32,053 bases of DNA, taken from contig QHPE01000169.1 in NCBI GenBank assembly GCA_003218945.1, forward strand, positions 1-32,053. The letters are read 5' to 3'. The notes below the pieces were generated by a model. It did not search any database. It was not told where the DNA came from and was given only the letters and a program-made list of their open reading frames with translations. The number at the start of each line of letters is the position of its first letter. Position 1 is the first letter of the stretch. This DNA comes from Verrucomicrobiota bacterium (GTDB lineage Bacteria; Verrucomicrobiota; Verrucomicrobiia; Chthoniobacterales; UBA10450). Positions 5,631-7,362 of the stretch are shown here, piece after piece. Position numbers and translations under genes: made by a program.

Positions 5631-5759
5631 GTCATTCCGAGCGAGGCCAAGGCTTCAACGCAGTCCCGAAAGCTTTCGGGGCGATGCCAAGCTTTCAATC
5701 CTCTGACATGACCTGAAAAGTGAGTGCGAGAGCATTCCTCAGACGTCGCTCGGGATGAC
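5631..5759. repeat. GTCATTCCGAGCGA-ended palindromic intergenic repeat
   Basis: GTCATTCCGAGCGA at 5631-5644 pairs with TCGCTCGGGATGAC at 5746-5759 (13/14 identical after reverse complement). Internal perfect 16-bp palindrome CCCGAAAGCTTTCGGG at 5665-5680. Confidence 0.8.
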
Positions 5760-6876
5760 GAACAAACTGAGCATTGTTTTGGTTCGCCGCGGGTATTCCC
5801 CGACCGGCGGAGCAGAAGCCTACTTAAGACGACTTGCGGATGGGATCATAAAAGCGGGCCACGACCTTCAACTTATTGGTACCGAGGACTGGCCTCAGGA
5901 CCAATGGTCATTTGGATCAAAAAAACGCCTGAGCGCGAAATCCGCAATTGGGTTTGCCGATGAATTGGAACAAATTCAGCCACAGCTTCGCTGCGATGTT
6001 TTGTTTAGTTTCGAGCGTGTGTGGCGCTGCGACGTTTACCGGGCTGGCGATGGAGTACATCAAGCCTGGCTGGCGCGCAGGAGAAAATTTGAAATCCCGT
6101 TAAAACAATTTGTCCGCGCGGTCAGCCGAAAGCACCGCGATTTGTTGCGCTTGGAGGAATCACTTCTTGCTGCGCGCAAGGCCGGGCGCGTGATTGTGGC
6201 CTCACAAATGGTCAGAAATGAAATCACCGAAGTTTACGGCTACCCCACGGACAAGATTGACCTCGTGCGTAATGGCGTTCCACTTGATCGATTTCGATTC
6301 GATCCCGAGCTTCGCGAGAAATCGCGCGCGCAGTTAAACCTTAAGCAGGATCAAATTGCGCTGTTGTTTGCAGGGTCAGGGTGGGAGCGCAAAGGCCTGC
6401 TGTTCGCAATCGAAGCCATGGCGCTCTGCCAGGACCGCAAGTTGCGGCTGCTCGTTGCAGGTCGAGGAAATGCGAGGCCGTACAAAACAACGCCCCTTTG
6501 TTTTTGGCGCGAGAAACCAGTGCAATTTCTTGGCGAAGTTGCAGACCTTGTGCCGATTTACGCGGCTGCGGACATCTTCATTTTACCCACGATTTATGAT
6601 CCATTCTCGAATGCCTGCCTGGAAGCACTGGCCTGCGGGTTACCGGTGATCACAACTCGTTCCAACGGATTTAGCGAAATCATCGAGGGCGGGGTTCACG
6701 GCTCAATTGTGGCGGATGCCGGAAGTCTTATTGATTTGCGTGACGCCATTCGCTTCTGGTCCGATCCCTCGCGGCGCCGGGTGGCGCGCACGACGAATAT
6801 CGACCGTGCATCGCAGTTCGATATTTCAAAAAACGTGGCGCAAACGCTGGACATTTTGATGCGCGCATCTGGGTAG
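5755..6876 (+). CDS. Glycosyltransferase family 4 (WaaG-like)
   Basis: MTNKLSIVLVRRGYSPTGGAEAYLRRLADG..., LFAGSGWERKGLLFAIEAM, FILPTIYDPFSNACLEALACGLPVITT. Confidence 0.9.
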   Translation: MTNKLSIVLVRRGYSPTGGAEAYLRRLADGIIKAGHDLQLIGTEDWPQDQWSFGSKKRLSAKSAIGFADELEQIQPQLRCDVLFSFERVWRCDVYRAGDGVHQAWLARRRKFEIPLKQFVRAVSRKHRDLLRLEESLLAARKAGRVIVASQMVRNEITEVYGYPTDKIDLVRNGVPLDRFRFDPELREKSRAQLNLKQDQIALLFAGSGWERKGLLFAIEAMALCQDRKLRLLVAGRGNARPYKTTPLCFWREKPVQFLGEVADLVPIYAAADIFILPTIYDPFSNACLEALACGLPVITTRSNGFSEIIEGGVHGSIVADAGSLIDLRDAIRFWSDPSRRRVARTTNIDRASQFDISKNVAQTLDILMRASG

Positions 6877-7020
6877 CGCACGCGTCTCGCGTGTTGGTTT
6901 TGGCGTCGCGCCGAAACAGACTTTCCTTTGACGATTTCGCGCTGGATGCTGGCGAATTACAATGAAAGTACGCGATCGCGAGGACGCCCTCGCCAGGCAC
7001 GCGTGACGCTTGCGCTACCC
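6871..7020. repeat. REP/MITE-like element with GGGTAGCGC inverted ends, spanning a convergent gene junction
   Basis: GGGTAGCGCACGCGTCTCGCGTG at 6871-6893; reverse complement of 6998-7020 is GGGTAGCGCAAGCGTCACGCGTG (21/23 identical). Confidence 0.88.
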
Positions 7021-7362
7021 AGCTAGGGCCGCATCCGCATCGGGGAAGATCTGAAAAACTTGATCGAGCCGAGAGATTTCGAAGATGGACCGCACGGTTT
7101 CCTGTAAACCCGCCAGCATGAATTTGCCTCCGTAGCCTTCCACTTTTTGCATCGCTTCGATCAATGCAGCCAGCCCAGCGCTGTCGATGTAACTTACGTC
7201 CGAAAGATCGACGACCATACGCTCCGGCTTTTTATTAATCATCTCGTTGAGCGACGCGGTGACTGAAGGGGAGACGTGCAGGTCGATTTCGCCCTTCAGC
7301 GGCAGAACATTAGAGCGGCTTTGGCGCGGGCTCGTACTTGATGAAGCGGGGTCTTTCGTCAT
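7015..7362 (-). CDS. STAS-domain anti-sigma factor antagonist
   Basis: LKGEIDLHVSPSVTASLNEMINKKPERMVVDLSDVSYIDSAGLAALIEAMQ. Confidence 0.92.
   Translation of the reverse strand: MTKDPASSSTSPRQSRSNVLPLKGEIDLHVSPSVTASLNEMINKKPERMVVDLSDVSYIDSAGLAALIEAMQKVEGYGGKFMLAGLQETVRSIFEISRLDQVFQIFPDADAALAG

Follow-up and report, generated by a model that had tools for sequence, protein, structure and literature searches.

A probable REPIN provides the stop codons of both genes of a convergent pair in a soil Chthoniobacterales genome

The gap between two convergent genes of a Verrucomicrobiota bacterium (Chthoniobacterales; UBA10450; assembly GCA_003218945.1, contig QHPE01000169.1) is filled by one repeat element, which also contains the stop codons of both genes. 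This element (6871–7020) is very probably a REPIN, i.e. a non-autonomous inverted doublet of GTAG-class REPs that was derived from the ends of a REP-RAYT-REP unit, was probably moved by the RAYT transposase and replaced both stops. The window, by which we mean the whole stretch of DNA analysed, comprises 32,053 nt (positions 1–32,053 of the forward strand) of a 2.8-Mb soil Chthoniobacterales genome (G000). The relatives named below are soil Chthoniobacterales and Verrucomicrobia metagenome bins, and copies of the repeat were studied locus by locus (extracted loci, L numbers).

The left REP (6871–6893, plus strand) reads GGGTAG CG CACGCG-TCT-CGCGTG and has the REP layout, with GTAG followed by two bases and a 6-bp palindrome (stem 6879–6884/6888–6893) with a 3-nt loop. 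The right REP (6998–7020, minus strand), GGGTAGCGCAAGCGTCACGCGTG, forms an imperfect stem, and the spacer between them occupies 6894–6997. Between the two 23-mers there are 2 mismatches, in agreement with the 21/23 identity reported in the preliminary description; counted together with the CT preceding each GGGTAG, the inverted arms (6869–6893 and 6998–7022) are 25 nt each, 92% complementary and 104 nt apart. The glycosyltransferase gene (family 4/group 1; 5755–6876, plus strand) enters the element and ends in the codons GCA TCT GGG TAG, its stop being the TAG of the left GTAG (6874–6876). From the opposite side enters the STAS-domain gene (7362–7015, minus strand), ending GCT GGG TAG at the TAG of the right GTAG (7015–7017, minus strand). 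Both open reading frames thus bear out that the TAGs of the two ends terminate the entering genes, the 138 nt between the stops belong entirely to the element, and gene annotation (glycosyl transferase group 1 and STAS) agrees with the identities first assigned. The RNA of the element folds as a single hairpin (−82.1 kcal/mol, z = −6.75). An Rfam search with it gave only chance-level matches to MIR918, far below the gathering score.

That the element belongs to a multicopy REP/MITE-like family, as had been proposed, was confirmed by a search for its end motif: allowing up to 3 mismatches, 30 matches were found in the whole G000 genome and none in a reversed-pattern control, so that the motif is not unique to this locus. 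The family was present in 24 of the 24 congeners first sampled, with the largest count (122 ends) in congener G002. The 84 non-redundant inverted doublets were 111–174 bp long (mode 145 bp), and among 230 collected ends 178 carried GTAG and 28 GGAG. Both arms of a given doublet are of one REP subtype, so that matching changes in them would not count as independent evidence of covariation. In shuffles of the window the motif had 0 matches, against 2 observed. These figures refute the reading of the element as an inverted repeat arisen by chance at one locus with coincidental stops, a vanishingly improbable one, for which nothing speaks beyond the one-in-three odds of any GTAG being in frame. 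A second, shorter type of repeat of approximately 60 bp with related ends, GGTAGCGCATGCGTCTCGCTTG ... CAAGCCGGAGGCTCGCGCTACT, also occurs in G000 (L014, L018, L020, L023, L024, L026, L028), and a few of its copies likewise give TAG stops.

The assignment to REPINs follows from the match of both halves of the element to the ends of RAYT units. A Y1/HUH transposase gene (G000:C9:32951–33564) is flanked on one side by a plus and on the other by a minus copy of the window element's ends. The left 60 nt of the element correspond to the right end of this unit at 88% identity (93% with the unit of G002), and the right 56 nt to its left end at 84%; over the RAYT units compared, the right 56–61 nt match at 80–84%. 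The outer parts of the spacer thereby match subterminal DNA of the RAYT unit, and the window REPIN looks like an internal deletion derivative of such a unit. Against the NCBIfam model for REP-associated tyrosine transposases (REP_Tyr_transpos, cut-off 80) the C9 transposase scored 75.8 bits, below the cut-off, and the standalone RAYT copy of a congener 82.5 bits, above it; a PDB sequence search with the RAYT returned nothing at 1e-3. Three features that define REPINs, namely an inverted doublet with spacer, a single-hairpin fold and a cognate RAYT with these REPs on either side, are present, as are those of GTAG-class REPs (GTAG or GGAG 5′ of a short palindrome, high copy number, and a mostly extragenic location near 3′ ends).

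A comparison across 30 genomes covered the STAS gene together with the glycosyltransferase gene convergent to it. Among the closest relatives lacking the element, the STAS gene ends ALAG-TAA or ALAG-TGA and the glycosyltransferase gene TRVAL-TAG, with a gap of 18–65 bp between the genes in most of them; in the window the ends are ALAG-TAG and MRASG-TAG, that is, at the same residues. Elements giving both stops occupy this junction in G000, G011, G016 and G042, and G048 has a remnant. A single origin of these insertions is not favoured, because the genomes bearing them are scattered on the tree of both proteins (5 changes) and the spacer is oriented in opposite directions in G000 and G011; losses together with inversion in place may be another account of the same pattern. 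In the G048 remnant (L100, contig C123), the REP-derived TAG still ends the STAS gene, the rest of the element is lost and the glycosyltransferase frame enters the STAS gene in antisense; such a structure would fit a deletion spanning a short TGCGC match.

At the 3′ end of the transketolase gene, empty sites read AAKSL-stop and occupied ones KSLG-TAG or RSLG-TAG (G011, G002, G013), and G007 and G003 retain remnants; the TAA used before insertion is still found directly after the element in G011, and the insertion adds at most one Gly here. Since orthologues without the element end at the same residue (STAS and glycosyltransferase) or one residue earlier (transketolase), an outcome named in advance as speaking against a module that sets the gene end, the element does not define where these genes end and has replaced a stop that was there. 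As judged from these aligned gene ends, the element is shown to have replaced existing stops in place, and to have done so repeatedly, and its presence and absence at orthologous sites are consistent with mobilisation by RAYT. No clear target-site duplication was seen on comparison of occupied and empty transketolase sites, few in number. Absence of such a duplication is the expectation for HUH elements.

The coding upstream frame was called at 178 distinct GTAG ends, which yielded 74 well-scored forward genes. Of these, 25 stop exactly at the TAG of the GTAG end, 34 stop 5–30 nt before it and 15 read on past it, so that 59 of the 74 entering genes terminate at the end or no more than 30 nt upstream. 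Forty genes reach a GTAG end, and 25 of them do so in the TAG frame, against 13.3 expected from a one-third chance (p = 1.5e-4, an optimistic value because some of the pooled loci are orthologous). When frame and distance to the stops were tabulated, as the preliminary description had suggested, the ends were thus found to give stops at several loci above frame-chance, and a lack of enrichment was not what emerged. None of 8 genes used a GGAG end as a stop, as must be. In G026, GGAG dominates the genomic REPs among the matches listed and also forms the ends of the RecG-borne RAYT unit; this genome represents a natural control for stop donation, as REPs of the GGAG type cannot give a TAG stop. 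By frame scoring, both ends of one doublet serve as stops in the window, at the STAS junction of G011 and at G005:C24 (L057).

Part of this pattern could reflect a transposase that targets stop codons or a gene-end motif (e.g. the CT before the end), in which case stops would be captured by target preference instead of by filtering. Two stop codons have been hit precisely and repeatedly by insertions, CT precedes both window ends as in the known cleavage site of TnpA-REP (PMC8266576), and the sequence before GTAG has the consensus T-C-Y-GG (TCTGG at 33 and TCCGG at 22 of 178 ends), although this consensus may be partly the element's own sequence. As the 34 genes that end shortly before the REP do not fit such targeting, and such ends are also found in frame well within genes, we regard it as an unlikely explanation. 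The preferred reading, insertion followed by filtering, follows from the end itself. The GTAG needed by such transposases contains TAG, and therefore a gene entering in the TAG frame must stop. Read from the sequence, a REP end has a stop in one of six frames only, so that copies landing at a gene end persist best with the TAG in frame and copies landing within a gene only with it out of frame; correspondingly, the ends of within-gene RAYT copies are passed in a frame other than that of the TAG. We infer that RAYT mobilises the REPIN and that tolerance at 3′ ends, not positive selection, is the main filter behind the frame bias. In the proposed course of events, RAYT proteins (HUH tyrosine transposases) would probably move the REPIN in trans as single-stranded DNA, the REPIN would insert into the short gap between convergent genes, and each of its ends would become a new stop where the old one stood, at almost no cost to the protein.

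The suggestion that a palindrome at gene 3′ ends is selected for or tolerated there therefore probably holds in its second part; selection is not supported, because insertion at gene ends and tolerance explain the data and because, inside genes, a non-TAG frame passes through these ends without stopping. A functional bidirectional stop or terminator module, selected at convergent gene ends, would account for the strong hairpin, for the occupation of the same STAS/glycosyltransferase junction and transketolase 3′ end in several species, and for the excess of convergent (11) over divergent (2) settings among the 40 doublets with both sides assigned. However, the remaining 27 of these 40 are unidirectional, most relatives lack the element at these junctions, its remnants decay (G048, G007, G003), and tolerance also predicts placement close to 3′ ends. 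Nor did the supposed role as an intrinsic terminator find support: a scan for the GC-rich stem followed by a U-run that marks such terminators gave one weak consensus hit, against 0.6 in shuffles, and a promoter scan likewise gave nothing above shuffles. Taken with this missing terminator signal, selection for such a module appears highly improbable.

The C9 RAYT, complete and bounded by REPs (insert approximately C9:32952–33563), forms an in-frame part of a RecG open reading frame of 925 codons without a stop (L001:326–3022), between the helicase motifs GDVGSGKT and DEQH. Of some 50 RecG genes of relatives, about 20 carry a RAYT at this one position, between ...GPLPLF and PQIIVGTHALL (L216–L221, L223, L225–L231, L235, L246, L247), the carriers spanning several families, and most of the remaining RecG frames are of about 690–750 codons. 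An assembly error as the source of the RecG fusion is unlikely, because many independent genomes share it. The distribution is intein-like. RAYT genes are also in frame in MetH (G000:C140, L083/L249; G007, L233), at a recurrent site in AlaRS (G043, G038, G120, G135, G210) and in CarB (G003), and more distant Y1 proteins in ValRS (G030) and CarB (G019); further loci with nested RAYT or Y1 genes in these MetH, AlaRS, CarB and ValRS frames are L234, L236–L238, L240 and L243–L245. Most nested copies keep the HUH motif and the tyrosine of YI.RNP. It should be noted that in the RecG-borne RAYT of G000 a His replaces the presumed catalytic Tyr (EKFHHILRNP against EKFHYILRNP in relatives), whereas the MetH-borne copy keeps it; the RecG-borne RAYT may be inactive, and the active transposase may accordingly be another copy or one now lost. 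On the RAYT tree the host gene switches several times, with at least 4 changes forced for RecG, and copies thus appear to move between hosts and yet to return to the same sites. No paper describing RAYT in frame inside RecG, MetH, AlaRS or CarB was found in the open-licence literature. Tentatively, the RAYT/REPIN family may have adapted to coding DNA: with a stop in a single frame and all other frames open, the ends would let short copies replace stops in place, with the full RAYT persisting in frame within these host proteins in an intein-like manner and returning to its sites.

Donation of TAG stops by GTAG REPs is already described, and the habit as such is not new. Di Nocera, De Gregorio and Rocco (2013; PMC3733652) reported that GTAG REPs often provide TAG stops, in a survey that includes Verrucomicrobia (O. 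terrae); their GTAG tag, small palindrome, inverted dimers, 3′-end location and TAG stops are all found here. The present case differs in lineage and sequence, in that one doublet supplies both stops of a convergent pair, and in that empty orthologous sites reveal replacement in place. REPINs as defined by Bertels and Rainey (2011; PMC3116915), compared by their description, share the inverted REP doublet with spacer, the hairpin fold and the link to RAYT, whereas in the present element the spacer can be seen to descend from the two RAYT unit ends. The REPtron of S. maltophilia (TnpA-REP group 3; PMC8266576) likewise has an HUH/Tyr transposase and, after GTAG, a short palindrome whose loop is 3 nt, the stem being of 8 bp there and 6 bp here; CT forms the cleavage sites in the REPtron and would be the putative counterpart here, and RAYT here frequently sits in frame within a housekeeping gene. 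PMC12306157 cites an effect on translation in E. coli for REPs lying no more than 15 nt from a stop codon.

With empty and occupied orthologous junctions at hand, the element provides a well-resolved natural case of a mobile repeat taking over stop codons and leaving the protein unchanged, in what are mostly uncultured soil bacteria. If confirmed, a RAYT lineage residing in frame inside housekeeping genes would itself need explaining.
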